From NCBI GenBank assembly GCA_011390165.1, contig JAABSV010000018.1, positions 1 through 64,000 of the forward strand: a stretch of DNA of 64,000 nt, given 5' to 3'. The stretch comes from Desulfobulbaceae bacterium. Lineage in GTDB: Bacteria > Desulfobacterota > Desulfobulbia > Desulfobulbales > Desulfocapsaceae. The position numbers and the translations under genes are program-made. Under the pieces are notes generated by a model. That model searched no databases and was not told where the DNA came from. It saw only the letters and a list, made by a program, of their open reading frames with translations. How positions within the stretch are numbered: position 1 is the first letter of the stretch; each line of letters opens with the position of its first letter. This document shows positions 7,741-64,000 of the stretch, one piece after another.

Positions 7741-7844
7741 GATTGAGCAGCTCCTCCGCGCAGCACTTCTCGCCCCCGCCCCTGCATTTTCCGTTTGCCG
7801 TTGACGATTTTTATCCGCCATTTTACGCAACTGAAGGGGTGTTC

Positions 7845-41031: not shown

Positions 41032-41928
41032 ATGCAGATCGGATTTATCGGCTTGGGTGCGATGGGCAGTCCGATGGCCGGCAGGCTGCTGGCCGCCGGC
41101 CACCAGTTGTCGGTCTTCGACCTCAATGAGGCAGCGGTGGCGGCAGCGACCGCCGCCGGCGCCGTCGGCTGCTCCACCCCGGCGGCGGTGGCCACCACCG
41201 CAGAGATGGTGCTGCTCAGCCTGCCCAATTCGGCCATTGTCAACCAGGTGGTCAGCGGCGCCGATGGAGTCCTGGCCGGGGCGGTGGCAGGGTGTACGGT
41301 TATCGACCTGAGCAGTGTCGACCCCCAAACCACCAGAACCTTGGCGGGGATGGCGGCGGCGCAGGGAGTGAGCTATCTTGATGCACCGGTCAGCGGCGGG
41401 GTGGCCGGGGCCGAGGGGGGTACCTTGACCATTATGCTGGGTGCGCCGGAACGGGCCCTGCCGGCGGTCCTGCCGCTTCTCCGGATTCTCGGCAAAAAAA
41501 TTATCCATGTCGGGGAGGTGGGGGCAGGAGATGCGGTGAAGATCGTCAACAACCTCCTCCTCGGCGCGAACATGGCGGCCCTTGCCGAGGCCCTGGTCCT
41601 GGGGAAAAAACTGGGGCTGACCGCCGAAGTAATGTTGGAGGTGATTGGCCAGGGCTCCGGGAAGAGCTATGTTCTTGATGCCAAAATGGAAAAATTCATC
41701 ATGGCCGGGCAGTTTCAGCCTGGCTTTGCGGTGGAGTTGCAGTACAAGGATCTCGGTCTGGCCCTGGATGCGGCAAGGGAGGTCCGACAGCCCCTGCCCA
41801 TGGCCAGCCAGGCCCGTCAACTGTTCGAGATGGCACGGGCGATGGGCTTTGGTCAGGAAGATATCTCCGCTGTGGTCAAGGTCTGGGAAGAGGTGTCGGC
41901 AACCACGGTCCGGGCGGAACAGAAGTGA
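41032..41928 (+). CDS. hgd: 2-(hydroxymethyl)glutarate dehydrogenase
   Basis: A 298-residue beta-hydroxyacid dehydrogenase. The NAD loop is GFIGLGAMGSPMAG (about residues 4-17), the substrate motif DAPVSGGVAGAEGG is near 117, and the catalytic lysine lies in GDAVKIVNNLL (near 170). By itself it could be a 3-hydroxyisobutyrate or tartronate semialdehyde enzyme. Its position at the head of a nicotinate operon, just before the dehydratase and mutase, fits the enzyme that reduces 2-formylglutarate to (S)-2-(hydroxymethyl)glutarate with NADH. Length is nearly the same as expected for the E. barkeri enzyme. First gene of the operon; the dehydratase begins 9 bases later. Confidence 0.87.
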   Translation: MQIGFIGLGAMGSPMAGRLLAAGHQLSVFDLNEAAVAAATAAGAVGCSTPAAVATTAEMVLLSLPNSAIVNQVVSGADGVLAGAVAGCTVIDLSSVDPQTTRTLAGMAAAQGVSYLDAPVSGGVAGAEGGTLTIMLGAPERALPAVLPLLRILGKKIIHVGEVGAGDAVKIVNNLLLGANMAALAEALVLGKKLGLTAEVMLEVIGQGSGKSYVLDAKMEKFIMAGQFQPGFAVELQYKDLGLALDAAREVRQPLPMASQARQLFEMARAMGFGQEDISAVVKVWEEVSATTVRAEQK

Positions 41929-41937
41929 GGTAAAGAC

Positions 41938-43353
41938 TTGGATGCAATAAGCGAATGGATTAGTCGTAAAGGGCTGACCGCAGGGGCGTTGTCGCTGGGG
42001 GACTGTATTGATATCGCCGTGGCCACCGGCAAGCGGTTGAGTGATGTGGTGGTCTTCGAAGCGATGGAGCGGGAGGGGCTGAGTTTTGCGGCGGTGCAGG
42101 AAGCGGTGCTGGAGAGCTTCGGCCACAACTTCAAGGCGCTGGCCGCCGGGCTGGCCGGTGAGGCGAGTTTTCTCTTCGGTACCGCCAGCCATGACCTGGT
42201 GGCCGAGGGGGCGCCGCCGGTGGTGGCCGACCCCCTGCTCAACAAGATGCTGGTTTACACCCTCGCCGCCCAGGCCGGCAACCATAGTGTCGGCCTGCAG
42301 CCCTGTGCCGGCACCGGTGACTCCTGCCCCTATTCCGGCTTCATGCGGGCGGTGCTGGAGCACTATCCGCGTCCGGAGGCGGCCAGGGCGGCGGCGGTGC
42401 TGCTGAAGATCGGCACGCTCTTCCGGGTCGGCAAGACCACCACCGGCTGCAACATGGAGGGGCTCGGGGCCGGTTCGGCGGCGACCGCGGCGGCCTTCGT
42501 CGAGATTGCCGGCGGTGATCCGGCAGCAGTGGGTCGAGCGGTGGTGCTGGCCATCTCGCCCACCCTCGGTACCCCCTGTACCCCGCGGGTGATGGTTCCC
42601 GGCCTCTGCGCCACCCACATCGGTGGGGCGATCATGAACGGCCGGCTGGCCAGCCACCTGGCGATGCATACCTCTCTGCCGGTGAACGTGCCGGTGGATG
42701 TGATGATTGCCCTGGCGGCGGCGGTCCACCCGCTTGCCGCGAAAAGCATCGTCCCCGAGGTGATCCGCTACATGGAACCCTATTTTCGTACCAACCAGGC
42801 GGTGGAGGCCTACGTTGACGACGGCGTCAAGGCCGCCGAGTCCGCCCGCAAGGCGGGGATTGCCGACCAGGCGCGGGAGGAGGTCCGGGCCCTGGCCCGC
42901 CGTGCCAACCCCATTGTCAAACCCTTCGGGACTGCCGTGGTCGGTGGTTCAAGCCAGGCGGTGGGGTCGCCCACCAACACCGGCCGGCTGGCCCATTTTC
43001 TGGCCAGGGGGAAAATACGCAGGGTGGTGATCGATCTTTATCCGGAACTGTTCGCCAGGCGTGGCATCAATGTCCCCGGCATTCTGATGGGGGCGGTGTA
43101 CGGTGCCTCGACCGCCGATGGGCTGATGTACCGAGAAGTGATGACACGGGTCCAGGCCGACGGGGTGGAGGTTGTGATCAACCAGGTGGACGAGTACCAG
43201 ATGCAGCGAGTGACCATTGAGGCCAGCGAAGGCGGCAGCATGGTCGATGCCAGAAACCGTGGTGGTGGTCGTCTTGCCCTGGTCCATGCCGAACCGGACC
43301 CGCGCCGCTGCCGGGAACTGGCCGCCACCCTGGAGATTGAGATTGTTGACTGA
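41938..43353 (+). CDS. hmd: 2-(hydroxymethyl)glutarate dehydratase, fused single-chain form
   Basis: A 471-residue iron-sulfur dehydratase related to anaerobic L-serine dehydratase. Residues about 90-290 carry the alpha-type domain with AGNHSVGLQPCAGTGDSCPYSG, KTTTGCNMEGLGAGSAATAAAF and LGTPCTPRV; four conserved cysteines can ligate a [4Fe-4S] cluster. Residues about 310-471 look like the beta-type domain. In E. barkeri the activity is described from two genes (hmdA, hmdB); here both parts seem to be in one chain. It would remove water from 2-(hydroxymethyl)glutarate to give 2-methyleneglutarate. Start codon TTG at 41938 with GAGG upstream. Oxygen-sensitive by analogy. Confidence 0.82.
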   Translation: MDAISEWISRKGLTAGALSLGDCIDIAVATGKRLSDVVVFEAMEREGLSFAAVQEAVLESFGHNFKALAAGLAGEASFLFGTASHDLVAEGAPPVVADPLLNKMLVYTLAAQAGNHSVGLQPCAGTGDSCPYSGFMRAVLEHYPRPEAARAAAVLLKIGTLFRVGKTTTGCNMEGLGAGSAATAAAFVEIAGGDPAAVGRAVVLAISPTLGTPCTPRVMVPGLCATHIGGAIMNGRLASHLAMHTSLPVNVPVDVMIALAAAVHPLAAKSIVPEVIRYMEPYFRTNQAVEAYVDDGVKAAESARKAGIADQAREEVRALARRANPIVKPFGTAVVGGSSQAVGSPTNTGRLAHFLARGKIRRVVIDLYPELFARRGINVPGILMGAVYGASTADGLMYREVMTRVQADGVEVVINQVDEYQMQRVTIEASEGGSMVDARNRGGGRLALVHAEPDPRRCRELAATLEIEIVD

Positions 43354-43386
43354 GCCCAACCTTGAGTTTGCCTAAAGGAAGAGACC

Positions 43387-45237
43387 ATGCAGGAAAAAAC
43401 CATCAAGATACTTGTTGAAGACCAGAAAGGGCTGCAGGCCTATGAAGAGACGTTCGGGGTGGAGATGCCCAAGGTGGCCGGTGATGGCAGCGTCACCGGC
43501 CTGCCCGCGCCCTATCCCCGGATGGTGGACGGCGTTGTCCGTGACGGCTACCGGATCCACGCCCTTGCCCGGCAGGCAGAAGAGAGTGGTATCCCGGTGC
43601 TCAACCCGATCCTTGGTCGGAACAGTGCCGAAGAGACCTACCGGGAGTCCCTGGAACTCTACCGGATGGCCGACCAACTGGGGATCACCATCTTCCATTT
43701 TGTCCATGCCGAGGCAACCAGGCATATCGACCCACTGCACGGGCGGGAGCTGATCGAACAGTCCCGGGGGAAGGGGGGAATCACCCCGCGCGGCGAGCGG
43801 GAACTGGTCGCCCTCGGTGCCGGCCGGCAACACCCGATGCGGGTCAACGCCACCGGTGATACCCCCCATTGGACCATCATCAACGCCTTCATCGCCGGCT
43901 TCGACGGTACCGATATCGGCCCGGTGATCCATGTCCATTTCGGTGGCCGGGGGATTCACGACTACAAGACCAAAGTGACCAACGGCTACAAGGCCCTTGA
44001 AGTGTGTGCCGACAACAACATCTTTGTCCAGACCGATTCCCACAAGCATCTCAACAACCTCGACGGCACCGATGGGATGGCCCTGGCCATGTGTCTGCTG
44101 GCCGAGGGCTTGGCGGTGAAGGCGGGGTTGCCGCGGCAACTGAGCGCCCTGCAGATGAACGTTGCCGGGATCAACCTGCTTGCCGACCTGGCGGTGATTC
44201 GCGCCTTCAAGGAGAGCATGTGGAGCGACTCGCTGGTGGTGGTGCCGGAGACCTTCCAGAATCCGCCGGGTGACCTGATTGCCGAGGCTGCCCACTTTGC
44301 CCGGATGGCGGTGAGCGCCAGGCTGGGAGGTGCGCACTTCTTCCGCCCGAAGGCGGCCGAGTCGGTGGGTATCCCCACCGGCGCCTCCATGGCCAAGGCG
44401 ATGTGGGCGGCGCAGAACGTCTTCGAAAACACCTATGCCATCGACATTGCCGACCCCTACATCGATCACCGTAAGGAGGAGATTCTCGCCGAGGCGATGG
44501 CAGTGCTCGGCAGGACCCTGCACCTTTCCGGCCAACTCGACCCGAAGGCTGTCGACGCCGGGTTCTGGCAGCAGTTCGACTCCGAGGTGTTGATCGACCT
44601 GATCGTCAACGCCGGTAAGGCGGGGATCCTTGATGCACCCAAGGCCGGTGGCTGGGATCTGAAGCGGCATGTCAAGACCCACCGCGATACCGACGGGATC
44701 CGACGCTATCTTCCCGGCTACTCTCCTCTCGGGATGCCAACGAAGCATTTTGCCTTCAGCCAGGCACCGGTCAAGGTGGTCGCCGCCCCACCGGCCACCC
44801 GCAAGCAGAAGGTGGTGCTGGCAACGGTGGGTGCCGATGCCCATGTCTCCGGGGTCAACCTGATCAAGGACGCCTTGGAGAATGCCGGTTTCGAAGTGGT
44901 CTTCCTGCGCGGCATGAATCTCCCGGAGACAGTGGCCGAGGTGGTGGCGGAGACCAATGCCGATATTCTCGGGATGAGTAATCTCCTCGGCCTGGGGCTC
45001 GACCTCTTTCCCCGGGCCAGCCGCCGCTTGCAGGAACTGGAACTGCGCGACAAGGTGATCGTGGTCGCCGGCGGCAGGATCACCGAAAAAGAGGAGGAAC
45101 ATTCTCTCTTTACAGAAAAAATTCGCCAGGAGGGGGCCGGCTTTCTCGGGGTGGACGGCTTTTTCGGGCCGGGTACCGACCCGGCTGAATTCATTTTGTG
45201 GCTCGACCGGGCCATTGCGGCCAGGGAGTCAAAATAA
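43387..45237 (+). CDS. mgm: 2-methyleneglutarate mutase (adenosylcobalamin-dependent)
   Basis: A 616-residue B12 enzyme. The N-terminal part (about 1-450) is a TIM-barrel-like catalytic domain with [53 protein letters not shown] and [21 protein letters not shown] (in parts). The C-terminal domain (about 475-610) is a B12-binding Rossmann fold with the base-off motif D-x-H-x2-G (DAHVSG, about 484-489) and later IVVAGGR. It isomerises 2-methyleneglutarate to 3-methylitaconate by a radical carbon-skeleton rearrangement. Size and order between the dehydratase and the isomerase match the nicotinate pathway. Ribosome site AAAGGAAGAG. Confidence 0.92.
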
Positions 45238-45249
45238 GGAGTGTCAGAT

Positions 45250-46395
45250 ATGGGTGAGATGCAGCGCATTCCCTGTGTGATCATGCGGGGCGGTACCAGT
45301 AAGGGGATTTTTCTCAAGGAGAACGACCTGCCCCGGGACAAGGAGCGACGAGACCGGACCATCCTGGCGATCTTCGGCAGTCCGGATGTTCGTCAGATCG
45401 ACGGTCTCGGTGGTGCCGACCCGCTGACGAGCAAACTGGCGATCATCGGCCCGGCCAGCCACCCGGAGGCGGACATCGATTACACCTTTGCCCAGGTGGG
45501 AATCGGTCAACCGGTGGTCGACTTCTCCGGTAACTGCGGCAATATCTCGGCGGCGGTCGGCCCATTTGCCATCGACGAGGGGTTCGTTGCCGCCGTCGAA
45601 CCGCTCACCCGGGTACGGATCCACAACACCAACACCGGCAAGATTCTCGTCGCCGAGGTGGCGGTGGTCGGTGGCCGGGCAAGGGTGGCTGGCGATTGCC
45701 GGATCGCCGGGGTGCCCGGCAGCGGTTCCCGGATCATGCTCGATTTTGCCGGCACCGCCGGGTCGGTGACCGGTAAACTCCTCCCCACCGGCAAGGTGCG
45801 GGAGGAACTGAACACCCCCTCCGGCACCGTTGAGGTGTCGATTGTCGATTGTGCCAACCCGATGGTTTTTGTCCGCGCCGCCGACATGGGGATTGCCGGC
45901 ACCGAGTCGCCGGCCGAGATCAATGGCAACCAACCCCTGCTCACCCGGCTGGAGGAGATCCGGGCGGCGGTGGCGGTACGGATCGGCATGGCCTCCACCC
46001 CGGCCGAGGCGACCGCCAAGAGCCCCGCCTTTCCCATGATTGCCATGGTTTCCCGGCCGGCTGACTACCAGGATTTCACCAGCGGCCGCACCATAGCCGC
46101 CGCCGACCTCTCTCTGGTTTCCAGGCTGATGTACATGCAGGTGCTGCATAAGACCTATGCCGGCACCGGTACCGTCTGTACCGGTGCGGCAGCAAAGATT
46201 CCCGGCACCATTGTCAACGAGATGATTGCTCCGGCCGATGCCGCCGAGACGGTGCGCATCGGCCATCCGGCCGGTATCATTTCCATCGAGGCCCGGGTGC
46301 GGGACGGCCGGGTCGAGCGGGCCGCCTTTGCCAGAACCGCCCGAAGGATTCTGGAGGGAGCGGTCTGGGTGGTTGCGGACAGGGTGGCGGGGTAG
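45250..46395 (+). CDS. mii: 3-methylitaconate delta-isomerase (PrpF family)
   Basis: A 381-residue PrpF/diaminopimelate-epimerase-fold isomerase. It starts RIPCVIMRGGTSKGIF (family signature), with SGNCGNISAAVGPFAI near residue 95 containing the active-site cysteine and KTYAGTGTVCTGAAAKIPGT near 305. It has no metal or cofactor motif. It would move the double bond of (R)-3-methylitaconate to give 2,3-dimethylmaleate. The start is ATG 45250, with AAGGAG eight bases upstream; an in-frame GTG at 45241 overlaps that site. PrpF itself (2-methylaconitate isomerase) is the main alternative, disfavoured by the mutase next door. Confidence 0.9.
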   Translation: MGEMQRIPCVIMRGGTSKGIFLKENDLPRDKERRDRTILAIFGSPDVRQIDGLGGADPLTSKLAIIGPASHPEADIDYTFAQVGIGQPVVDFSGNCGNISAAVGPFAIDEGFVAAVEPLTRVRIHNTNTGKILVAEVAVVGGRARVAGDCRIAGVPGSGSRIMLDFAGTAGSVTGKLLPTGKVREELNTPSGTVEVSIVDCANPMVFVRAADMGIAGTESPAEINGNQPLLTRLEEIRAAVAVRIGMASTPAEATAKSPAFPMIAMVSRPADYQDFTSGRTIAAADLSLVSRLMYMQVLHKTYAGTGTVCTGAAAKIPGTIVNEMIAPADAAETVRIGHPAGIISIEARVRDGRVERAAFARTARRILEGAVWVVADRVAG

Positions 46396-46400
46396 TTTCG

Positions 46401-47963
46401 ATGCAGGCAAATCTTTTGGTCTACGATGTCGGCAGTACCTACACCAAGGTGTCGGCCTTCGTCCTCACCGCCACCGGTCTCGAGCTGCTTGCCCGCGACC
46501 AGGTGCCGACGACGGTGGCGGACATCCAGGCCGGCATCGCCAGGGCCGACGCGGCGGTGGCGGCGGCCGGGGTTGTTCTCGCCGCCGATCCCCTGATTCT
46601 GGCCACCAGCAGTGCTGCCGGCGGTCTGCGGATGGTGGCGATGGGCTACATGCCCAGGGTGACCGCCAAGGCGGCCAAAGAGGTATCGATGAGCGCCGGT
46701 GCCCGGGTGCTGGAGATCATTACCCACGAAGACCTGCCGGAGTACCGGGTCGAGATCCTCCAGGAGATCAAACCGGACATCATCCTGCTGGCCGGCGGCA
46801 CTGATGGTGGTGACAGTGCCAACCTGGTGGAGAACGCCCGTTACATTGTCGCCTCCCGGGTGAAGGCGGTGGTCATTGTCGCCGGCAACAGCCAGGCCCA
46901 GCCAATAGTGGCGGAGATACTCGAGAAGGCGGCAGTGCCGGTCCGGCGAGTTGCCAATGTCATGCCGACCATCCACGAACTGCGGGTCGGGCGGGCTCGG
47001 GAAGCGATCCATGAAGAGTTCATCAAGCAGATATCCCAGGCCAGGGGGTTGAACAAGCTCCTTGATGTCGTCTCCGACCGGCTGGTGGTGCCAACCCCCG
47101 GGGCGATCCTGATGGCGGCGGAGCTGCTGGCCGGCGGGACCTATGCCGAGGAGGGGGTAGGTGACCTGGTGGTGATCGATATCGGCGGTGCCACCACCGA
47201 TATCCACTCTATCCTGCCCAGCCTGGAGCAGCTCGCCATAGAGGAGAGGGGGCTGGTGGTGACCAACGAAAAGCAGGCCGCCTACCGGACGGTGGAGGGG
47301 AATCTGGGACTCAGGATCAGCGCCACCGGTATCGTTGAGACCGTCGGCCCGCTCGGGGTGCTGGCTAAGGTCGGCTTGCAGGGCGAAGAGCTGGCCGAAA
47401 AACTCCATCAATACACCGTCTTTCTCGAAAAGGAACCTGAGCATGTGGCGGCAAAGGGGTTGGAAGAGCGCTTTGACCAGGCTCTGGCCATTGCCGCCAT
47501 CGAGGTCGCCCTGAAACGCCATGCCGGCCATCTGGCTCAGGAGTATAACCCGGTGATGGGGATTGCCCCGGGCACCCCGATGGGACGCGATCTGCGCGGG
47601 GTGAAGACGGTTATCGCGGTGGGTGGCATCTTCACCCATGCCGAGCCGGTGCAGCGCGAGGCCATCGTCGCCGCCGCCATGCGGGAGCGGGGAATCTCCC
47701 TGCTGCCTGAGGAGTACAGTGTCTATTTTGACAGGCAGTATCTGCTCTATGCCATCGGGGCGCTGTCGCGCCGGTGGCCGGATATTGCCCTACGCTTTGC
47801 CAGGGAGTATCTTGGGCTACCGGCGGCACTGGCCTCCGGGCAAAGCCACTGTTCGGTTGGGGCCGGAGGGGAACGGGTGAGGGGATTGTGCCATGGTAAT
47901 AACGAAACAGATGAACGGGACAATGGTGACAGCAGCCATGACAGGCAACACGGCAGTCGGTAG
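46401..47963 (+). CDS. MutL-like B12 mutase partner protein
   Basis: A 520-residue ASKHA-fold ATPase of the glutamate mutase L (MutL) family. Phosphate loops are YDVGSTYTKVSAF (about residues 8-20) and VVIDIGGATTDIHS (about 257-270); a middle region has ILLAGGTDGGDSANLVENARYI. MutL genes sit with coenzyme-B12 mutases such as glutamate mutase and are thought to act as repair or reactivation factors. Here glutamate mutase genes are absent and the partner is almost certainly 2-methyleneglutarate mutase. The last 40 residues are hydrophilic and poorly conserved in look. Six bases follow mii. Confidence 0.87.
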   Translation: MQANLLVYDVGSTYTKVSAFVLTATGLELLARDQVPTTVADIQAGIARADAAVAAAGVVLAADPLILATSSAAGGLRMVAMGYMPRVTAKAAKEVSMSAGARVLEIITHEDLPEYRVEILQEIKPDIILLAGGTDGGDSANLVENARYIVASRVKAVVIVAGNSQAQPIVAEILEKAAVPVRRVANVMPTIHELRVGRAREAIHEEFIKQISQARGLNKLLDVVSDRLVVPTPGAILMAAELLAGGTYAEEGVGDLVVIDIGGATTDIHSILPSLEQLAIEERGLVVTNEKQAAYRTVEGNLGLRISATGIVETVGPLGVLAKVGLQGEELAEKLHQYTVFLEKEPEHVAAKGLEERFDQALAIAAIEVALKRHAGHLAQEYNPVMGIAPGTPMGRDLRGVKTVIAVGGIFTHAEPVQREAIVAAAMRERGISLLPEEYSVYFDRQYLLYAIGALSRRWPDIALRFAREYLGLPAALASGQSHCSVGAGGERVRGLCHGNNETDERDNGDSSHDRQHGSR

Positions 47964-48003
47964 GCGGGTATCGGGGGCCCTCGAGCAGAGGAGGTCTTTG
48001 GGG

Positions 48004-48690
48004 ATGGAGGTCGCCTCCCTGGCCGACCTGGTTACCCGGCAGATACGTGAGGCGATCATCACCGGTGAATTCAAGCTTGGCAAACAGCTCAAGGAGGATG
48101 AGTTGTGCAAGCTGTTTGCCATCAGTCGGCCACCGATCAGGGAGGCATTCAAGACCCTGGAGGCCAACGGCCTGGTGACCCGCAAGCCCCGCCGGGGGGT
48201 CTTCGTCGCCGAATTCACCGCCAAAGATGTCGAGGAGGTGTACACCATTGTGGCGATGATCTACCAGAAGGCCACCTCACTGGCCCTTGACGCCCTTGAT
48301 GAACAGTCGCTGGCCGAGCTGGCGGCGCAGGTCGAGTCGATGGAGCGCCATGCCGGTGAGGATCCTCCCAATCTCCGCGATTACCAGGCCGCCCACCTCG
48401 CCTTCCACGAAATCATCATGGATCTGGCCGGCAATCGCCGAATGAAGGAGCTCGAGAAGCAGCTTCGCTACCAGATCACCATCATGAGTTACAAATCGTT
48501 TCAGGAGCCGGAGCACCTGCAGTCGTCGCTGAACTACCACCGCCAGATTCTGGCCGCCTTCCATCGCCAGGACAAGGAGGAGGCCCTGGCCCTGATGGAA
48601 GAACATGTCCTCAGGGCGATGGCCTTCCTGATGAAGAAGATTTCCCAGCTGAACCTGGTGGCTGCCGGGCAGGACGACCACCAGGAGTGA
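48004..48690 (+). CDS. GntR-family (FCD domain) transcriptional regulator
   Basis: A 228-residue regulator. The winged helix-turn-helix spans about residues 5-70 (LADLVTRQIREAIITGEFKLG, LCKLFAISRPPIREAFKTLE), followed by a seven-helix FCD ligand domain with HLAFHEIIMDLAGN, YHRQILAAF and EEHV, whose Asp/His residues commonly bind a metal that holds an organic acid. The start at 48004 has GAGGAGG nine bases upstream; a longer frame overlaps the previous gene by 71 bases. It sits inside the operon it probably controls. Likely sites are the TTGT-centre-ACAA palindromes at hgd, dctP and dml; nicotinate or a pathway acid may be the inducer (inference). Confidence 0.88.
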   Translation: MEVASLADLVTRQIREAIITGEFKLGKQLKEDELCKLFAISRPPIREAFKTLEANGLVTRKPRRGVFVAEFTAKDVEEVYTIVAMIYQKATSLALDALDEQSLAELAAQVESMERHAGEDPPNLRDYQAAHLAFHEIIMDLAGNRRMKELEKQLRYQITIMSYKSFQEPEHLQSSLNYHRQILAAFHRQDKEEALALMEEHVLRAMAFLMKKISQLNLVAAGQDDHQE

Positions 48691-48720
48691 ACCCAACCAG
48701 AATAGATTGGAGGATTCCCG

Positions 48721-49305: not shown

Positions 49306-49317
49306 CCCGGTTGGCTG

Positions 49318-52932: not shown

Positions 52933-52933
52933 G

Positions 52934-54097: not shown

Positions 54098-54156
54098 AAG
54101 AGGTGCTGGTAAACGGCTGCATCCGACAGATGGCTCGGCAGATGGAGGGGAAAACA

Positions 54157-55683: not shown

Positions 55684-55686
55684 TCG

Positions 55687-56595: not shown

Positions 56596-57457
56596 CTGCC
56601 AGCGGCTACTGGTTGCCATCAAGGGGGGTGGCGAGATGGCCAGCGGTATTGCCCTGCGGCTGTACCGTGCCGGCTTTCGCCGACTGCTCCTCCTTGAGCG
56701 GGATGAGCCCTTGGCCGTTCGCCGGACTGTCTGCTTCTGCGAGGCGGTTCATGACGGTACGGCGTTGGTCGAGGGGGTCGAGGCGGTGCGGCTGGAGGGG
56801 CTGGAACAGCTGGCGGCTGTCTGGGCTGCCGGCAAGGTTGCGGTGCTGGTCGACCCCACCTGGCAAAGCCTGGCCCAGGTCCGTCCGCACGTACTGGTCG
56901 ATGCCCTGCTCGCCAAGAAAAACCTCGGCACCACTCTGACCGAGGCCCCTTTGGTGATCGGCATCGGGCCGGGCTTTACCGCACCGGTGGATGTGCACCG
57001 GGTGGTAGAAAGCAACCGCGGGCATGATCTCGGTCGGGTGCTTGCCAACGGCCGGGCCCAGGCCAACACCGGCATCCCTGGCGAAACAGGCGGGTACACA
57101 ATTGAAAGGCTGCTGCGTGCCCCGGCGAGCGGGCTCTTCACCGGCCATCGCCAAATCGGGGAATTAGTCACTGCCGGACTCCTGGTTGGAGACGTTGGCG
57201 GAACTCCGGTTCTTGCCGCGATTTCCGGCACCCTTCGTGGGCTGATTCGGAGCGGCACCCGGGTGCGGGCAGGGGTGAAAATCGGCGATATCGATCCTCG
57301 CGGGGTAGTTGCCCACTGTTGGACGGTATCGGATAAGTCGCGGGCGATCGGCGGCGCGGTCCTTGAAGCCATTCTCGAGGCGATGGTAATCCACTCCGCC
57401 CCGGCTCGCCTGGCTGCTGACCTGGGCGGTAACGATACCGGTGATGTCGCTCAGTGA
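56582..57457 (+). CDS. yqeB: selenium-dependent molybdenum hydroxylase system protein YqeB
   Basis: A 291-residue protein of the YqeB/EF2563 family. It starts LLVAIKGGGEMASGIALRLYRAGF, a Rossmann-like nucleotide loop (about residues 10-33), and has LLAKKNLGTTLTEAPLVIGIGPGF (about 105) and ESNRGHDLGRVLANGRAQANTGIPG (about 142). The family occurs only with molybdenum hydroxylases that carry a labile selenium, together with yqeC. The ATG at 56582 follows GGAGGAGGA closely. Its biochemical step is not established. It is the best marker in the window for selenium use by the nicotinate dehydrogenase. Confidence 0.9.
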   Translation: MVTFDCQRLLVAIKGGGEMASGIALRLYRAGFRRLLLLERDEPLAVRRTVCFCEAVHDGTALVEGVEAVRLEGLEQLAAVWAAGKVAVLVDPTWQSLAQVRPHVLVDALLAKKNLGTTLTEAPLVIGIGPGFTAPVDVHRVVESNRGHDLGRVLANGRAQANTGIPGETGGYTIERLLRAPASGLFTGHRQIGELVTAGLLVGDVGGTPVLAAISGTLRGLIRSGTRVRAGVKIGDIDPRGVVAHCWTVSDKSRAIGGAVLEAILEAMVIHSAPARLAADLGGNDTGDVAQ

Positions 57458-58232
57458 AGCGCTTGCCCTTGGCGGCAGCGGGGTGATCAGTCTGGTTGGT
57501 GCCGGCGGCAAGACCACTCTGCTCTACAGTCTGGCCGCTGAACTGGCGGCAGCCGGCCAGCGGGTGCTGACCACCACCACCACGAAAATCTATCCGCCGG
57601 CAGCACACCAGTCACCGCATCTGGTGCTGAGCGATGATCTGGATTTTCTCTGTGCCACCCTGCCGGCGGCTTTGGCCAAATATCGTCATCTAACCGTTGC
57701 CGCCGGCCGTGAGGCGAAGAGTGGCAAGCTGTACGGGCTTCCTGCCAAAACGGTCGACCGGTTGTTCGCGGGCCGGCTGGCCGACACTATCATCGTCGAG
57801 GCCGACGGTGCCGCCGGCCGGCCGTTGAAGGCCTTTGCCCCCCATGAGCCGGTGGTGCCGGTTAGTACCGGCAGGCTGGTTTATCTCCTGGGCCTTACCG
57901 CATTGGGAAGGCCGCTCTCTGAAGAGTGGGTGTTTCGCGCCGGGCAGTACAGCCGTTGCACCGGTCTGGCGGCGATGGCGGCAGTGAGCGAAGAGTCGGT
58001 GGTGGCCATGCTTGACCATGATCTGGCCGGCATTGTCCTGGCCGGTGGTGCTCTGCGGATACTCCTCTGTACCCAGGCGGAGAGCGAACAGGCCATCGCT
58101 GCCGGCCATCGCCTGGCCGAACTGCTTGCCGGCCGGCAGCCACCCCGCTGTTTTGACCGGGTGGTTGTCGCGACCCTTGCCGGATCTTCGCTGATCCGCC
58201 ACATTGGTAACCTGAAGGAGAGGGTGGTTTAA
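57444..58232 (+). CDS. yqeC: selenium cofactor biosynthesis protein YqeC
   Basis: A 262-residue P-loop protein of the YqeC family. The Walker A loop is VGAGGKTTLLY (about residues 18-28), with TTTTTKIYPP (about 44) and IIVEADGAAGRPLKAFAPHEPVVP (about 114) as family signatures. The start is taken at ATG 57444, 14 bases inside yqeB; GTG 57441 is possible. The family is tied to selenium-dependent molybdenum hydroxylases and probably acts on the molybdenum/selenium cofactor with ATP or GTP. It overlaps xdhC by one base. Confidence 0.9.
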   Translation: MSLSEALALGGSGVISLVGAGGKTTLLYSLAAELAAAGQRVLTTTTTKIYPPAAHQSPHLVLSDDLDFLCATLPAALAKYRHLTVAAGREAKSGKLYGLPAKTVDRLFAGRLADTIIVEADGAAGRPLKAFAPHEPVVPVSTGRLVYLLGLTALGRPLSEEWVFRAGQYSRCTGLAAMAAVSEESVVAMLDHDLAGIVLAGGALRILLCTQAESEQAIAAGHRLAELLAGRQPPRCFDRVVVATLAGSSLIRHIGNLKERVV

Positions 58233-59323
58233 TGAATGGCCAACTGTACGCAAGCCTGCACCAGCTTCTTGAACAGGGGAAGGATGTCGTTCTGGTCCGG
58301 GTGGTCCGCCACAGCGGTTCCGCCCCCCGGGGCACCGGTAGCGGCTGCCTGCTTACTGCTGCTGGTAAGATGTACGGCAGTATTGGTGGCGGCATACTCG
58401 AGTACCGGGCGATGGAGCGGGCGCAGGCCCTGCTGACCAGTGGCGAGACCGCCCTTGCCACCGTTGAACTGAGCGCCGTCGAGGTGGCTGCCGAGGGGAT
58501 GATCTGTGGTGGCCGGGTCGATCTTTTTTTTGAACCGATTCTGGCCGCTGACCTTGCCGCCAGAGACTGCTTTGCGGCAATCCATGCGCTCATTGCCGGT
58601 GGTGGCAGCGGTATCCTGCGGACCCGACTGGCCGATGGCGTGCCGGCGGTGGTGGTGGAGCGGCTGCTGCTCAGCGATGCCGGCGAGGTGCTGGCCGGAG
58701 TTGCCTCGCTGGGGTCGGCGGTCGGTGTCAGACCGGCAACCACTCCCCGGCTGGAAGAGGTCGATGGCGGCGCCCCATTTTTTCTCGAGCCGGTCGCGCC
58801 AGAGCCGGAGATTGTTCTTTTTGGCGGAGGCCATGTCGGCGAGGCGGTCGGCCGGCTCGCCGTGCTGACCGGCTTTCGCCTGCAGGTGATCGATGATCGC
58901 CCTGAATTTGCCAGCCGGCAGCGGTTTCCGGAAGCGGAGCAGGTTGTGGCCCTGCCCTTTGCCGAGGCCCTGAAGGTGGTACGATCAGGCCGAGCCAGTT
59001 ACGTGGTGATCATGACCCGGGGCCATCTCAGCGACCTGGAGGTTCTGGAGATGGTACTCCGCTCACCACAGGCGCCTGCCTATATCGGCATGATCGGCAG
59101 CCGCCGCAAACGAGATACGCTCTTCGCCGCCCTGCGTCGGCAGGGGGTGACAGAGGCGGCTCTGGCGGCAGTCCACTGCCCCATTGGCCTGGACATCGGT
59201 GCCCAGACCCCGGCAGAGCTTGCGGTGAGTATTCTGGCCGAGATCATCGCCCACCGCAAGGGGCGGGGTGGTGGTGCCGAGGTGGCGGAAAATCCGGGGC
59301 GGAGCGGGAGGGGAGGGCGGTGA
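58232..59323 (+). CDS. xdhC: XdhC/CoxI family molybdenum hydroxylase maturation protein
   Basis: A 363-residue two-domain maturation factor. The N-terminal XdhC/CoxI domain (about 12-110) has RHSGSAPRGTGSGCLL and GSIGGGILEYRA with MICGGRVDLFFEP. The C-terminal Rossmann domain (about 190-340) has VLFGGGHVGEAVGRLA, DDRPEFA, MTRGHLSDLEVL and YIGMIGSRRKR. Such proteins bind molybdenum cofactor and help install the terminal sulfur (or possibly selenium) before insertion. The tail beyond residue 340 is Gly/Arg-rich. It overlaps yqeC and mocA. Confidence 0.92.
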   Translation: MNGQLYASLHQLLEQGKDVVLVRVVRHSGSAPRGTGSGCLLTAAGKMYGSIGGGILEYRAMERAQALLTSGETALATVELSAVEVAAEGMICGGRVDLFFEPILAADLAARDCFAAIHALIAGGGSGILRTRLADGVPAVVVERLLLSDAGEVLAGVASLGSAVGVRPATTPRLEEVDGGAPFFLEPVAPEPEIVLFGGGHVGEAVGRLAVLTGFRLQVIDDRPEFASRQRFPEAEQVVALPFAEALKVVRSGRASYVVIMTRGHLSDLEVLEMVLRSPQAPAYIGMIGSRRKRDTLFAALRRQGVTEAALAAVHCPIGLDIGAQTPAELAVSILAEIIAHRKGRGGGAEVAENPGRSGRGGR

Positions 59324-59937
59324 GCATCAGCGGGGTGATCCTCGCTGCGGGTACCTCCCGGCGGATGGGGAGGAGCAAGGCCCTTCTCCCCTGGCGGGGC
59401 CTTCCCCTTCTCGGCTGGGTAATCGCCAATGCCCGTCGGTCGCGGCTCGACGATCTGGTGGTGGTTCTTGGCCATCAGGCGGATATGGTCCGTCGACAGG
59501 TCGATTTTCAGGGTGCGACGGTGGTTACCAATCGCGAGTATCGGCGCGGGCAGAGCAGTTCCCTGCAGGCCGGCCTGCAGGCAGTGCCGGCCGGGTGCAC
59601 CGCGGTGCTCTTTCTGCTGGCCGACCAGCCCCTGGTCGATGCAGCGATCATTGACCCCCTGCTCGATGCCTTCCACCGCCAGCCGGCCTCCCTGATTCTC
59701 CCGGTTCATCAGGGCAGACGGGGAAACCCGGTTCTCGTTGCCCGTGCGCTCTTTCCACAGGTGCATTCGCTCAGCGGGGACACCGGGCTGCGGCCGCTCT
59801 TTCCCGCCTTGCAGGGGCAACTCCGGGAAGTGGCTGTGCCCGGACCGGCGATCCATCTCGACCTGGATACCCTGGAAGAGTATCGACAGCTTGCCGCCGT
59901 CTGGTCCGCCGCTGACCCGCCCCTGCAGGGAAATTGA
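59320..59937 (+). CDS. mocA: molybdenum cofactor cytidylyltransferase (MocA-like)
   Basis: A 205-residue nucleotidyltransferase. The NTP motif is GVILAAGTSRRMGRSKALL (about residues 5-23), with GQSSSLQAGL (about 76), LLADQPLVD (about 98) and RGNPVLVAR (about 130). MocA makes the cytosine dinucleotide form of the molybdenum cofactor, the form used by many hydroxylases of the xanthine oxidase family, including E. barkeri nicotinate dehydrogenase. Start GTG at 59320 behind GGGAGGGGAGGG, overlapping the xdhC stop. Last gene of the plus-strand operon. Confidence 0.9.
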   Translation: MSISGVILAAGTSRRMGRSKALLPWRGLPLLGWVIANARRSRLDDLVVVLGHQADMVRRQVDFQGATVVTNREYRRGQSSSLQAGLQAVPAGCTAVLFLLADQPLVDAAIIDPLLDAFHRQPASLILPVHQGRRGNPVLVARALFPQVHSLSGDTGLRPLFPALQGQLREVAVPGPAIHLDLDTLEEYRQLAAVWSAADPPLQGN

Positions 59938-60135
59938 GGTATCCTTTCGGGCAAACGCCCACCATTTTCGACATTCCCCGGTAGTACCCCCCCTTGCCGT
60001 TCCCAAAAAGTCGTGGCCGGAAGGTGGACTTATGCGCTGCGGGTCCGTTTTTTTAGGGTACTGGCCGGTTTTGTGCGGCGGCAGCTGCCTTCAACGCTGT
60101 CGAGGCGCCGGTGGATCCTTGGGAAGTGTCGCGGT
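59938..60135. other. convergent intergenic region mocA/dctM
   Basis: This 198-base region should contain the ends of both the hgd-mocA and TRAP operons. A T-run at 60045-60051 follows a short GGAC/GTCC stem (plus strand), a weak terminator candidate. No gene is supported. Confidence 0.35.
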
Positions 60136-61443
60136 TCAGCCGGTCATCTTCGAGGGCAGGTAGGTGGCGATGGCCGGGAAGATGATCAGCAGTCCGGTCA
60201 CTACAAAAACCGCCAGGAGGAAGGGGACAACGCCGCGGAAGATCGTTTCCACCTTGACGTTTTTTGCCACCCCGGCGATGGTGAAGATGTTCAGACCAAG
60301 GGGAGGGGTGATCAGCCCGGCCTGCATCATCAGCACCGCCACCACCCCGAACCAGATCGGGTCATAGTGGAGGGCGGACATCACCGGGAAGACCACCGGC
60401 AGGGTCAGTACCATCATGGAGATGGCATCAAGGAAGCAGCCAAGAAAAAGGTAGACGACGATGATCGCCAGGAGAATGACTAAGGCGGGGACATCCAGGC
60501 TGGTCACCCAATTCGCCGCCTGCATCGGGATGGTGGAGAGGGCGAGAAAATAGGTGAAGATGCTGGCCCCGGCAACCAGGAAGAGGACCATTACCGAGGT
60601 GCGCAGGGCCTCTTGCAGCGCCCCGACCAGTTTCTGCCAGGAAAGTTTGCCCTTGATCAGCACCGACAAAAGGAGCAGGGTAGCCCCGACCGCCCCCGCT
60701 TCGGTGGGGGTGAAGAGGCCACCATAGATGCCCAACATCACCAGGAGAAAGAGCCCGAGAGGCTCCGCCACCCCGCGCAGCAGCAGCAGCCGCTCCCTCC
60801 AGGAGACCTCGCGAACCTGCTGGGGTGCCGCCTCCGGGTCCAATTTCACCCAGATCACCACCACCGCACAGAAGGCGATCGCCAGCATAAAACCGGGGAT
60901 GATGCCGGCGACCAGCAGTTTGCCGATACTCTGCTCGGTGAGCATGCCGTACACAACAAAACCGAGGCTGGGAGGAATCAGAAATCCCAGGGTACCACCG
61001 GCGGCAACTGCGCCGGTACTCAGTTTGTCGGAGTAACCGTAGCGTTTCATCTCCGGCAGGGCGATATTACCGAGGGTGGCGGTGGTCGCCACCGCCGAGC
61101 CGGAGACAGCGGCAAAAGCGGCGCAGGCGGAGATCGAGGCAACCGCCAGTCCGCCGGGCAGACGGCCTAACCACTTGTCGAGGCAGGTGTAAATGTCTCT
61201 GGTCATTCCGGAGGCACCGGCAAACGAACCCATGATGATGAACAACGGGATCACCATGTACGGGTAGGTGGCGGCCTCGTCGTAGACGGTTCTCGCCGAA
61301 ACCGGCAGCGCCGCGTCGATACTGGAGAGGAAGGCAATGCCGCTGAAGCCGACCATCATCAGGGAAAAGGCGATGGGCATGCCGAGGGCAAGGAGAATAA
61401 AGACAGCACAAATTCCCAGAACGCCAATGGTCATCGGCTCCAT
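60136..61443 (-). CDS. dctM: TRAP transporter large permease (DctM)
   Basis: A 435-residue membrane protein with about twelve hydrophobic segments. Typical DctM stretches are FIIMGSFAGASGMTRDIYTCLDKWLGRLPGGLAVASISACAAFAAVSGSAVATTATLG (in parts; about 68-125), LIPPSLGFVVYG and GLITPPLGLNIFTIAGVAKNV (about 380). It forms the substrate channel of a sodium-driven tripartite uptake system. Two bases separate it from dctQ. The transporter shares operator-like sites with the nicotinate genes, so nicotinate is the likely cargo (inference). Confidence 0.95.
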   Translation of the reverse strand: MEPMTIGVLGICAVFILLALGMPIAFSLMMVGFSGIAFLSSIDAALPVSARTVYDEAATYPYMVIPLFIIMGSFAGASGMTRDIYTCLDKWLGRLPGGLAVASISACAAFAAVSGSAVATTATLGNIALPEMKRYGYSDKLSTGAVAAGGTLGFLIPPSLGFVVYGMLTEQSIGKLLVAGIIPGFMLAIAFCAVVVIWVKLDPEAAPQQVREVSWRERLLLLRGVAEPLGLFLLVMLGIYGGLFTPTEAGAVGATLLLLSVLIKGKLSWQKLVGALQEALRTSVMVLFLVAGASIFTYFLALSTIPMQAANWVTSLDVPALVILLAIIVVYLFLGCFLDAISMMVLTLPVVFPVMSALHYDPIWFGVVAVLMMQAGLITPPLGLNIFTIAGVAKNVKVETIFRGVVPFLLAVFVVTGLLIIFPAIATYLPSKMTG

Positions 61444-61445
61444 GA

Positions 61446-61922
61446 TCAGCTCCGCAGTTCTTTCAGTTGGTCAATGATATCGAGGAGAATCTCCAGGGCA
61501 AAGGAGAGGCAGCCCACGGCCAGGGCCATCCGGAAGGGGTTTTCGGGAATACGCAGCATATCGGAGACGGTGGTCTCCTCAACGGCGATGATGTATCCCT
61601 GCCAGACCAGGACCAGCAGCATGGTGATACAGAGAGTGTTGAGCAGTATGGCGATGACCGTCTGCACCTTGGCCGGCATCAGGTCCACCAGAAAGGAGAC
61701 CCGTACATGGGCCCGACACTGGTGGGTATAGGAGAGGCCAAGGAGAATGAACAGGGCAAGCATGTAGGAGGACAGTTCCATGGTGCCGGGAACCGTGGTG
61801 GTGAAAAACTTGCGGAGAAAGACATCGGTGGTGGAGAGCAGCATCATAGGTAAGAGCAGGAACATCGCCGCAAAGGAGATTGTCCGGGTAAAGCCCTGCA
61901 CCACTGTTCTGAATTGTGCCAT
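61446..61922 (-). CDS. dctQ: TRAP transporter small permease (DctQ)
   Basis: A 158-residue membrane protein with four predicted helices. The DctQ signature appears as STTDVFLRKFFTTTVPGTMELSSYMLALFILLGLSYTHQCRAHVRVSFL (in parts; about 30-80). It forms the small membrane part of the TRAP complex with DctM. It lies between dctP and dctM, 87 bases from dctP. Confidence 0.92.
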   Translation of the reverse strand: MAQFRTVVQGFTRTISFAAMFLLLPMMLLSTTDVFLRKFFTTTVPGTMELSSYMLALFILLGLSYTHQCRAHVRVSFLVDLMPAKVQTVIAILLNTLCITMLLVLVWQGYIIAVEETTVSDMLRIPENPFRMALAVGCLSFALEILLDIIDQLKELRS

Positions 61923-62009
61923 AAGAAAACCTACTGGCGGTTCTGACGCCGTCGCATGATATTACGGGCGGGCGGCAGGCTCGAACTGAACCTGCCGCCC
62001 GGCAGGTCT

Positions 62010-63038
62010 CTACTCTTTCCACTCGGGGGGGATGGCGACGGCATCGCTGCCATGCTTTTTCACCACCCGGGCCAGTGTTCTGACAACTTCTTCAGCCTGT
62101 TTGGGATCCTTCTGGGCGGCAACCCAGTCCCTGGTTACTTGCTGGAAGGAAGCAAACCACTCTTCCTGTTCGGCCGGGTTCAGGTCGTGCAACTGCACTC
62201 CCTTTTCCTTCAATTCGACGATCATCTCCGCGTAGGATTTGTGGTCGAGACCACCGGTATGGGCAAAGGGGTTGTTGGCGACTTTGGTGATGATTTCCTG
62301 TGAGCCGGCATCCAGTTTGTCCCACTTGCTCTTATTCATGGCTACCCCTTCGGTGACACAACCAAAGGTGGCTACCACCCCGTACTTGGCCACTTCATAC
62401 AGTTTAAAGGAGAGAACCAGTGGCGGGCAGGTCACCACGCCGTCGATGGCACCGGTATCAAGGGAGGTGTAGACATCGCCCAGCGGCATGAATACCGGTT
62501 CGGCACCGAGATTCTTGATGTACTGGGTCTGCAGCCCACCAGGAGTGCGGATCTTTAATCCCTTCACATCGTTAAGGGATTGCACCGGCTTTTTGGTCCA
62601 TAGAAAGGACTGGATGCAGCCGTTCAGTTCGAGCATATGGACATCCTCGAACTCATGTTTCAGGGCCAGTTCGAACATCTCGTTGCCGATGGCGACAGCC
62701 TTGTCCTTACCATCGATCCACATCGCCGAGGAGAGTATCTCGGAGAGGGGGAATTTCCCGGGGGTCCAGGTGGCGGTGAAGTAGCCCATGTCGCTCATTC
62801 CGTTCTTGACGATGTCATAATGGGCAGGTCCTTTGCCAAGGGCACCGCCGGCGAACATGGTGTAGTCAAGTTTCCCGTCGCTCTCCTTTTTGATCGACTC
62901 CATCATCGGTATCCAGACGGTCTGCACTTCCCGGCCTACGGCGGCGTGCCAGGTACTGAATTTGAGGTTTTCGGCAACGCTGAAGGTACTGCCGAGCAGC
63001 AGCAGCGACAGGGTGACACCCAAAGCAAATTTTCTCAT
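62010..63038 (-). CDS. dctP: TRAP transporter substrate-binding protein (DctP)
   Basis: A 342-residue periplasmic solute receptor. The signal peptide is about residues 1-22 (MRKFALGVTLSLLLLGSTFS). DctP-family features include the arginine that clamps a substrate carboxylate in LKGLKIRTPGG-like sequence (about 163-172), YTATWTPG-type early loop and VFMPLGDVYTSLDTGAIDGVVTCPP (in part, about 185). AGAGGAG precedes the ATG. The carboxylate-binding Arg fits nicotinate as cargo. First gene of dctPQM, divergent from dml. Confidence 0.94.
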   Translation of the reverse strand: MRKFALGVTLSLLLLGSTFSVAENLKFSTWHAAVGREVQTVWIPMMESIKKESDGKLDYTMFAGGALGKGPAHYDIVKNGMSDMGYFTATWTPGKFPLSEILSSAMWIDGKDKAVAIGNEMFELALKHEFEDVHMLELNGCIQSFLWTKKPVQSLNDVKGLKIRTPGGLQTQYIKNLGAEPVFMPLGDVYTSLDTGAIDGVVTCPPLVLSFKLYEVAKYGVVATFGCVTEGVAMNKSKWDKLDAGSQEIITKVANNPFAHTGGLDHKSYAEMIVELKEKGVQLHDLNPAEQEEWFASFQQVTRDWVAAQKDPKQAEEVVRTLARVVKKHGSDAVAIPPEWKE

Positions 63039-63100
63039 TTTTCTTCTCCTCTGGTTGGTTGACGGCTGTTGACTACACCGGGCGGCATATCCGCCATTTT

Positions 63101-63155
63101 GTATATTGTATACAAAAAGGCGAACAAAATGGTATATTGTATACGGATGTATACC
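63101..63155 (-). promoter_or_regulatory. two putative GntR operator sites at dctP
   Basis: GTATATTGTATAC occurs twice as a direct repeat (63101-63113 and 63132-63144), 31 bases apart, about three helical turns. The first includes the perfect palindrome TTGTATACAA (63106-63115). The second lies inside a larger dyad, GGTATA (63131-63136) to TATACC (63150-63155). They cover the region from the -10 box to just past the likely start of transcription. Confidence 0.65.
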
Positions 63156-63177
63156 GGCCGCCGGGCGGTGGTGTCAA
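63148..63177 (-). promoter_or_regulatory. putative sigma70 promoter of dctPQM
   Basis: On the minus strand TTGACA (63177-63172), an 18-base spacer and TATACA (63153-63148). Transcription would start near 63140, inside the operator repeats, about 100 bases before dctP. Confidence 0.6.
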
Positions 63178-63264
63178 TCTTTTTTGCTATTTCGGTTTGA
63201 AACTGCCGAAAGGAGATGCCATTTGGCCGGTCTTTTGCCCGACTCTTGCATGGCCGATTTTGCC

Positions 63265-63293
63265 TTGACAGGAGAATTAGTCTATTGTAGACA
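63265..63293 (+). promoter_or_regulatory. putative sigma70 promoter of dml
   Basis: TTGACA (63265-63270), a 17-base spacer and TAGACA (63288-63293), the same hexamers as at hgd. Transcription would start near 63300, about 55 bases before dml. Confidence 0.55.
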
Positions 63294-63299
63294 ATAGTC
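63282..63299 (+). promoter_or_regulatory. putative GntR/FCD operator at dml
   Basis: CTATTGT-AG-ACAATAG (63282-63297) has perfectly complementary arms and covers the -10 box. It shares 14 identical bases with the hgd site. Binding there would block RNA polymerase, so the regulator is probably a repressor released by an inducer. Confidence 0.65.
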
Positions 63300-63354
63300 C
63301 ATAGACAGAAAATGGGGATCTCCACTCCAGCCAAGGCATATACTCTATTCAGAC

Positions 63355-64000
63355 ATGAAGACAACAACAATGCTCCGGCAGGCACTGCTTGACCACACCC
63401 TGGTGGTCGCCCCCGGGGCTCATGATGCGCTCACCGCTCGAGTTGTGGAGAGCTGTCAGTTTCCGGCCGTCTACATGACTGGGTATGGCCAGGCTGCCAG
63501 CCACTTGGGCCGACCGGATATCGGTTTGCTGTCGATGACCGAGATGGTCAGCCGGGCCAGGAACATGGCGGCGGTGGTCGAGATCCCGGTAATTGCCGAT
63601 GCCGATACCGGCTTTGGCAACGTGATCAACGTGATCCGCACTGTCCGCGAGTACGAGGCGGCCAATGTAGCGGCAATTCAGTTGGAAGACCAGGTGCTGC
63701 CGAAGAGGTGCGGCCATATGCTCGGCCGCGAGGTGATACCCCGCCAGGAGATGGCCGGGAAGATCAGAGCGGCGGTGGCAACGAGAAACGACCCGGACCT
63801 GATGATCATAGCTCGGACCGATGCCCGGACCCTGCACGGCATCGACGAGGCGATTGACCGGGCCAGGGCCTATGAGGATGCCGGCGCCGATATCATCTTT
63901 GTCGAGTCTCCGGAAAGCATCGACGAAATGCAGCGGATCAACCAGTCCCTGAGCAAACCGACCCTGGCCAACATGGTGGAGGGGGGGAGGACCCCGCTAC
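63355..64000 (+). CDS. dml: 2,3-dimethylmalate lyase (partial, cut by window end)
   Basis: The first 215 codons of an isocitrate lyase/PEP mutase superfamily protein with a TIM-barrel fold. Metal residues are in IADADTGFGN (about 79-88), the mobile active-site loop is KRCGHMLGRE (about 118-127) with the catalytic cysteine in RCGH, and IARTDARTLHG and IIFVESPES follow. Relatives include methylisocitrate lyase and oxaloacetate hydrolases. Next to the nicotinate genes, under a shared operator, it is most likely the enzyme that splits 2,3-dimethylmalate into propionate and pyruvate. The C-terminal part lies beyond base 64000; dmdAB may follow. Confidence 0.85.
   Translation, partial: MKTTTMLRQALLDHTLVVAPGAHDALTARVVESCQFPAVYMTGYGQAASHLGRPDIGLLSMTEMVSRARNMAAVVEIPVIADADTGFGNVINVIRTVREYEAANVAAIQLEDQVLPKRCGHMLGREVIPRQEMAGKIRAAVATRNDPDLMIIARTDARTLHGIDEAIDRARAYEDAGADIIFVESPESIDEMQRINQSLSKPTLANMVEGGRTPL

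Follow-up and report, generated by a model that had tools for sequence, protein, structure and literature searches.

A run of genes in a Desulfobulbaceae bacterium (phylum Desulfobacterota) very probably serves to import nicotinate and break it down by the route known from Eubacterium barkeri, with the electrons probably passed to sulfate. The window analysed here is the first 64,000 bases of contig JAABSV010000018.1 (67,532 bases), part of an assembly (GCA_011390165.1) of 3.59 Mb in 108 contigs that is 91% complete. Within it, 17 tightly packed plus-strand genes span positions 41032-59937; downstream, the minus strand encodes a TRAP transporter (60136-63038), and a candidate dimethylmalate lyase, Dml, starts on the plus strand at 63355. 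Profile scores were judged against the Pfam and NCBIfam/TIGR cut-offs, and homology was tested against PDB chains. The original prediction, made from the DNA letters, had described a compact nicotinate locus with its own transporter and regulator, and the Pfam and NCBIfam families place the genes where it had them, including the TRAP transporter and a GntR/FCD regulator.

From the gene families, their order and their conservation, we infer the following reactions for this organism. The TRAP transporter would import nicotinate, a selenium-dependent molybdenum hydroxylase (nicotinate dehydrogenase, NDH) would convert it to 6-hydroxynicotinate, and 6-hydroxynicotinate reductase (Hnr) would reduce the ring. 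Enamidase, with the help of a protein of family PF06684, would open the ring to give 2-formylglutarate and ammonia. 2-(Hydroxymethyl)glutarate dehydrogenase (Hgd) and dehydratase (Hmd) would lead to 2-methyleneglutarate, which the B12-dependent mutase Mgm, together with a GlmL-type helper, would rearrange to 3-methylitaconate, the substrate from which the isomerase Mii would form dimethylmaleate. A hydratase missing from the locus would then yield dimethylmalate, to be cleaved by Dml into pyruvate and propionate and/or, as its coenzyme A (CoA) ester, by the products of two further genes, CaiB and HMGL, into pyruvate and propionyl-CoA; the electrons would probably go to sulfate. Of the whole route, the locus lacks only the hydratase step that precedes the final cleavage, so that 'all but one step', as originally claimed, was correct.

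The assignment is carried by enzymes whose best PDB matches are solved enzymes of the nicotinate pathway. Hgd (41032-41928) matches 3cky with 338 bits (runner-up 206), enamidase (52934-54097) matches 2vun with 487 bits (runner-up 31.5) and Mii (45241-46395) matches 3g7k with 550 bits (runner-up 261), all wide margins, and the molybdenum subunit of NDH corresponds to both halves of 3hrd. We take these chains to originate from E. barkeri, the listings giving molecule names only. In the alignment of enamidase with 2vun, the HxH motif, a Glu, two His and an Asp are identical; these are presumably the amidohydrolase active-site residues.

Four other genomes have this gene set together with the mutase: G442, from the same family, G565, from the same genus, Deltaproteobacteria bacterium Smac51 and the metagenome-assembled genome Nc350_bin113. 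In a phylum sample of 395 genomes (thresholds of E 1e-60 for enamidase and E 1e-40 for the mutase), enamidase was found in 60, this genome included, and the mutase in this genome alone. Three of 193 genomes sampled from the order carry enamidase, namely this one, G442 and G565, and the latter two also have the mutase beside it. Exact peptide patterns taken from a single mutase sequence were used to scan a species-genome collection and returned two loci, those of Smac51 and Nc350_bin113; E. barkeri was not returned by this exact-peptide, single-sequence scan, which is hence uninformative on other phyla. Smac51 holds the whole route, each step, in a single run, in the order PF06684, NDH (three genes), enamidase, Hnr, UPF0280, Hgd, Hmd, Mgm, Mii, GlmL, Dml and a LeuCD-type pair. 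The stretch from Nc350_bin113 contains PF06684, enamidase, Hgd, Hmd, Mgm, Mii, GlmL and Dml, with NDH and Hnr not between them. In a further genome, G241, Hgd comes after the front end, where the contig stops; a mutase search there gave no match. The mutase-type loci are monophyletic for PF06684, Hnr and the molybdenum subunit (FastTree support 1.0, 1.0 and 0.86).

That ordinary members of unrelated families, such as xanthine dehydrogenase, serine dehydratase and glutamate mutase, were grouped here by chance is extremely improbable. Such a grouping would suit Hmd, Mgm, Hnr and Dml, which are assigned by family and neighbourhood only, but not the PDB matches of Hgd, enamidase, Mii and the molybdenum subunit, nor the same set in four other genomes, nor a mutase whose one match among the 395 phylum genomes falls in the genome bearing this locus. 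The original prediction had set out beforehand that best matches all lying in unrelated families would speak against it; instead, 3cky, 2vun, 3g7k and 3hrd rank first.

The locus appears to represent a known pathway, in variant form, which its host probably links to sulfate reduction. Alhapel et al. are said to have described in 2006 the fermentation of nicotinate by E. barkeri with NDH, Hnr, enamidase, Hgd, Hmd, Mgm, Mii and a lyase of the isocitrate-lyase family, which the locus shares, Hnr, Hmd, Mgm and the lyase as candidates. It differs in its fused molybdenum subunit, in being without the hydratase pair, in having CaiB and HMGL after the lyase, and in a host with dsrA. It may also differ in the genes for selenium-molybdenum maturation, PF06684 and UPF0280 that stand inside it. 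To our knowledge, the mutase route is known from one clostridial species only, and no description of it outside E. barkeri appeared in the titles and abstract openings of open-licence papers among the matches listed. Across the phylum, the front half (NDH, Hnr and enamidase) often occurs where there is no mutase; because Alhapel et al. reportedly found the first three enzymes in nine Proteobacteria, we do not claim it as new here. The mutase route in sulfate reducers and related bacteria would give the pathway an evolutionary history and provide new enzymes to study, and it predicts an anoxic oxidation of niacin, perhaps also of trigonelline. Desulfococcus niacini is a nicotinate-degrading sulfate reducer, and its likeness to the present host is one of physiology, niacin being the substrate.

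Front-end enzymes and helper proteins

NDH is encoded by three genes. The first specifies a subunit with two [2Fe-2S] clusters (49318-49791; Pfam Fer2_2, 109.6 bits), the second a subunit binding flavin adenine dinucleotide (FAD; 49788-50648), whose best match is chain C of 3hrd, and the third the molybdopterin subunit (50641-52932), a single fused chain of 763 residues with GVGEPAL at 713. Residues 5-414 of this chain are covered by 3hrd A (362 bits) and residues 435-751 by 3hrd B (265 bits); among PDB chains it also matches 4-hydroxybenzoyl-CoA reductase over its full length, with 345 bits. The E. barkeri molybdenum protein consists of two chains, NdhL and NdhM, according to a passage in PMC10331938, and selenium is bound to molybdenum in nicotinic acid hydroxylase, as a part of PMC2432076 has it. 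Two selenium-molybdenum maturation genes lie within the cluster, YqeB (56549-57457; TIGR03309, 335.6 bits, cut-off 220) and YqeC (57441-58232; TIGR03172, 150.8 bits, cut-off 73). Both exceed the curated cut-offs, and their presence fits NDH being a selenium-dependent molybdenum hydroxylase. They are followed by an XdhC-related maturation factor (58232-59323; NF045664, 318.9 bits, under the cut-off of 350) and a MocA-type molybdenum cofactor cytidylyltransferase (59320-59937; TIGR03310, 172.8 bits, under the cut-off of 186.5). Elsewhere in the window, a selenocysteine tRNA gene (11076-11173) points to the genome also using selenocysteine.

In the candidate Hnr (54103-55683), the Pfam and NCBIfam profiles recognise only 4Fe-4S domains. 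The next gene encodes a UPF0280-type protein (55687-56595; NF003322, 205 bits, under the cut-off of 290), which is located after Hnr in most loci. Its sole significant PDB relative is 2o34 (41.5 bits), which we take to be ApbE-like, and its conserved NGGD and ADAAAT motifs presumably resemble those of ApbE. Since E. barkeri Hnr carries a covalent flavin, these traits suggest that the UPF0280-type protein possibly attaches the flavin to Hnr.

The PF06684 protein (48721-49305; also DUF1185 or AA_synth) scores 235.7 bits with its family model and matches PDB 2qtp and 3byq with 224 and 112 bits. RidA-type enamine hydrolases have a fold related to that of PF06684, and on this ground we propose that the protein acts at the 2-formylglutarate stage as an enamine hydrolase or isomerase. 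Part of PMC2954203 describes two structures of the family, with a chorismate-mutase-like fold, no known function and a suggested role in amino-acid metabolism. These proposals would give candidate roles to two function-less protein families, PF06684 and UPF0280. In its distribution, PF06684 is a regular companion of enamidase in loci with and without the mutase, and its sequences separate by pathway type.

The mutase branch, the hydratase and the end products

Among the four other mutase genomes, Hgd is 55-67%, Hmd 52-76% and Mgm 69-83% identical to the proteins of the window. The candidate Hmd (41938-43353), a protein resembling Fe-S serine dehydratases, barely passes the SDH_alpha model (PF03313, 27.6 bits, cut-off 26.4) and has no PDB match at E 0.001. 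Mgm (43387-45237) is a candidate coenzyme-B12-dependent 2-methyleneglutarate mutase; its B12-binding domain (61.8 bits) occupies C-terminal residues 475-575 and includes DAHVSG at 484-489, an instance of the DxHxxG motif, and Pfam, NCBIfam and PDB searches found no match for its N-terminal part. The GlmL/MutL-type protein encoded after Mii (46401-47963; TIGR01319, 300.6 bits, cut-off 204) probably helps or reactivates the mutase. Its frame is overlapped by that of the GntR/FCD regulator (47893-48690; Pfam FCD 69.5 bits, GntR 66.5 bits), whose start is uncertain.

No aconitase-family hydratase pair is found within the locus; the organism may have one all the same, its assembly being 91% complete. 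In G442, an aconitase-type pair of 433 and 174 residues (L092:7763-9585) stands between DctM and MocA, at the site of a 198-bp gap in the window (59938-60135). The large subunit of this pair passes the aconitase/isopropylmalate dehydratase subfamily model with 585 bits (cut-off 385). In the tree, the pair joins those of G565 (contig 74) and G512 in a paralogue clade with 91/89 support, separate from the short-type LeuC usual in the family. The clade is not strictly tied to nicotinate, because G512 is without an enamidase match. As for six other members of the genus, the usual short-type LeuC is present in G448, G505, G543 and G546, and G512 and G565 have only the paralogue. The genome of the window encodes two LeuCD pairs of the long type and one AcnA-type protein. 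The LeuCD-type pair in the Smac51 run indicates that such a pair can be part of the set, and the large subunit of one pair here (on C61) is 54% identical to that of Smac51. A divergent LeuCD pair occurs at L008:3852-5885 of this genome (tree branch length 0.99); a frame near it resembles aldehyde:ferredoxin oxidoreductase, by eye only.

The gap could also mean that the pathway is blocked or shortened, stopping at dimethylmaleate or methylitaconate for want of the hydratase, or that the locus is decaying. We consider this unlikely: the G442-type pair is indeed not in the 198-bp gap and has no close homologue in the assembly, but the reading frames are open, the assembly is incomplete, and the Smac51 run does contain a LeuCD-type pair. 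Given an assembly that is 91% complete and in 108 contigs, the pair may have escaped assembly, or its role may fall to a LeuCD pair.

Several observations weigh against the E. barkeri route as proposed here. This assembly contains neither a hydratase of the G442 type nor a short-type gene, and both LeuCD pairs sit on contigs other than that of the locus. The C61 pair was considered as the missing hydratase and set aside as a weak link, its clade being shared with relatives lacking an enamidase match (e.g. G448, G505, G512 and G546). The FAD subunit of NDH favours 3hrd C over CO dehydrogenase by a small margin, 116 to 105 bits. Mgm, Hmd and Hnr are candidates assigned by family and neighbourhood, and structure models of Mgm and Hmd, built from three-row alignments, were unusable (mean pLDDT 36 and 49). 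In the FastTree phylogenies, the enamidase and UPF0280 sequences of mutase-type loci are not monophyletic, suggesting that parts were exchanged or separately assembled. Finally, the Dml trio of G565 lies on a different contig from the remaining locus.

The breakdown of nicotinate by way of the mutase would end with Dml (63355-64000 in the window, with the stop at contig position 64245), a family-level assignment to the phosphoenolpyruvate mutase/isocitrate lyase family that scores 299 bits with the prpB model, under its cut-off of 354. Dml is at least 63% identical in all five mutase genomes and is found in two of nine other genomes searched, there with at most 52% identity. Beyond the window, it is followed on the plus strand by CaiB, a class III CoA-transferase (contig 64349-65581), and HMGL, a hydroxymethylglutaryl-CoA (HMG-CoA)-lyase-type gene (contig 65622-66542). 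The order Dml-CaiB-HMGL is shared by the three mutase-bearing genomes from this taxonomic order (the present one, G442 and G565), and the fetched stretches of Smac51 and Nc350_bin113 have Dml without CaiB or HMGL. Chloroflexus cleaves citramalate with a CoA-transferase and a lyase of the HMG-CoA-lyase family; here the same two adjacent families stand beside Dml, with dimethylmalate as the presumed substrate. Extrapolating from five genomes, we propose dimethylmalyl-CoA as the compound that the sulfate reducers cleave, with propionyl-CoA and pyruvate as products. CoA-dependent cleavage would save the activation of propionate, and propionyl-CoA may take the place of propionate as end product.

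The dsrA gene of this genome scores 569 bits (cut-off 393); it is likewise above the cut-off in G442 and G565, and not in Smac51 and Nc350_bin113. Its presence makes sulfate-coupled oxidation likelier than fermentation, and the host probably couples niacin breakdown to sulfate reduction. The original prediction had left the choice between fermentation and oxidation, both via propionate and pyruvate; oxidation with sulfate is now favoured, and propionate may have to give way to propionyl-CoA. The CoA exit and the roles of the helper proteins are the least certain parts of this explanation.

Related loci: a possible second exit and candidate trigonelline demethylases

Beyond the window, the Desulfobacterota loci tentatively suggest one anaerobic niacin front end with two exits, a picture about which we are more doubtful than confident. 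One exit would pass through the B12 mutase and, in the sulfate reducers, close with a CoA-dependent step that splits dimethylmalate into propionyl-CoA and pyruvate; in the other, free of the mutase, an acylating, decarboxylating dehydrogenase would turn 2-formylglutarate into glutaryl-CoA. PF06684 would act at the 2-formylglutarate stage, UPF0280 would flavinylate Hnr, and some members would first demethylate trigonelline by a corrinoid-dependent enzyme of a distinct MttB clade.

Stretches around enamidase were obtained from 39 of the 59 other enamidase genomes, many of them cut off where the contig stops; the stretch from G241 belongs to the mutase type and the other 38 are mutase-free, three of the latter with a divergent enamidase (38-52% identity). 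None of Hgd, Hmd, Mgm, Mii, GlmL, Dml, CaiB and HMGL occurs in these 38 stretches. Enamidase, Hnr and the molybdenum subunit are found together in 31 of them, and PF06684 shares the stretch with enamidase in 33. An acylating aldehyde dehydrogenase of the methylmalonate-semialdehyde type is present in 29 (L050:4175-5692 and 28 further loci of L040-L078) and absent from nine; in 26 of the 29 it lies on the same strand as the nearest cassette gene and at most 300 bp from it. No such dehydrogenase occurs in 55 control stretches (359,255 bases), which come mostly from the family of this genome and not from the same genomes. The TIGR01722 scan took in 27 of the 29, two at region edges being left out, and all 27 matched at E 1e-100 or better (one printed score, 469 bits, cut-off 448.5). 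Since 2-formylglutarate is a 2-substituted malonate semialdehyde, the enzyme is predicted to convert it to glutaryl-CoA and CO2.

Nicotinate catabolism in Azorhizobium caulinodans proceeds via glutarate and glutaryl-CoA and shares the front end of 6-hydroxynicotinate, tetrahydro-oxonicotinate and hydrolytic ring opening. The mutase-free loci of the relatives may follow this glutaryl-CoA route by means of the acylating dehydrogenase, whereas the locus of the window does not. The work of Kitts et al. 1992 on this catabolism is named in a passage of PMC9304392.

MttB-like methyltransferases were sought in 64 genomes, comprising this genome, G442, G565, Smac51, Nc350_bin113 and the 59 other enamidase genomes. 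Seven, G442 included, encode a protein at least 40% identical to that of G442 (L093:11934-13403, L094:9836-11278, L102:11119-12564, L105:9790-11232, L099:13590-15038, L103:371-1828 and L104:138-1595); the next matches reach at most 30%, several of them with TAG, and this genome has no match. None of the seven contains an in-frame TAG. The G565 match is reported with one TGA and one TAA, yet almost its whole length falls within an open frame of 480 codons. Three tested members match TIGR02369 of the MttB superfamily with 276-286 bits, below the cut-off of 525, and thus differ from pyrrolysine-type MttB. Five of the genes (G442, G565, G244, Smac51 and G241) lie less than 5 kb from nicotinate genes; in G123 and G151 the gene sits on a different, short contig. 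In six of the seven, the methyltransferase gene has a second, divergent TRAP transporter next to it; in G565 that transporter is at the opposite end of the cluster. Two have a corrinoid protein beside the gene (G442 and G241), and two a protein resembling those of methyltetrahydrofolate transfer (G442 and G123, the latter cut by a contig end).

Known non-pyrrolysine relatives of MttB act on methylated quaternary amines. N-methylnicotinate (trigonelline) is such an amine, and its demethylation gives nicotinate; we therefore propose it as the substrate and regard the clade as a candidate trigonelline demethylase, predicted for the relatives only. In PMC10805028, trigonelline is mentioned as an aromatic compound that might be, though it is not yet known to be, a substrate of methyl-group metabolism. 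G123 also has a xanthine-dehydrogenase-family pair (L103:6412-9253), 28% identical to the molybdenum subunit of NDH, next to its MttB and TRAP genes.

These methyltransferases bear on whether the compound imported in the window's host is nicotinate at all. It might be a different pyridine, for instance a nicotinate that is substituted or N-methylated, with nicotinate itself at most an intermediate. Five relatives do carry the methyltransferase beside the cluster, and sequence does not fix the specificity of the transporter; against this stand the empty MttB-like search of this genome, the wide margins of enamidase, Hgd and Mii, and nicotinamidase homologues in six of the 38 mutase-free loci, of which the one scanned exceeds its cut-off. 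The nicotinamidase homologues are independent support for niacin as the substrate, and we judge import of another pyridine to be improbable. The transporter that would import nicotinate comprises DctM (60136-61443; TIGR00786, 339 bits), DctQ (61446-61922; PF04290, 91.7 bits) and DctP (62010-63038; PF03480, 143.8 bits), all on the minus strand.

A scan of positions 47500-63400 for promoters and terminators gave four promoter-like sites where 3.0 were expected and 20 terminator-like sites where 11.1 were expected, a result that was not used. Further upstream, a thiamine pyrophosphate riboswitch lies at 7645-7750 of the window, with 63.5 bits, above the gathering score.

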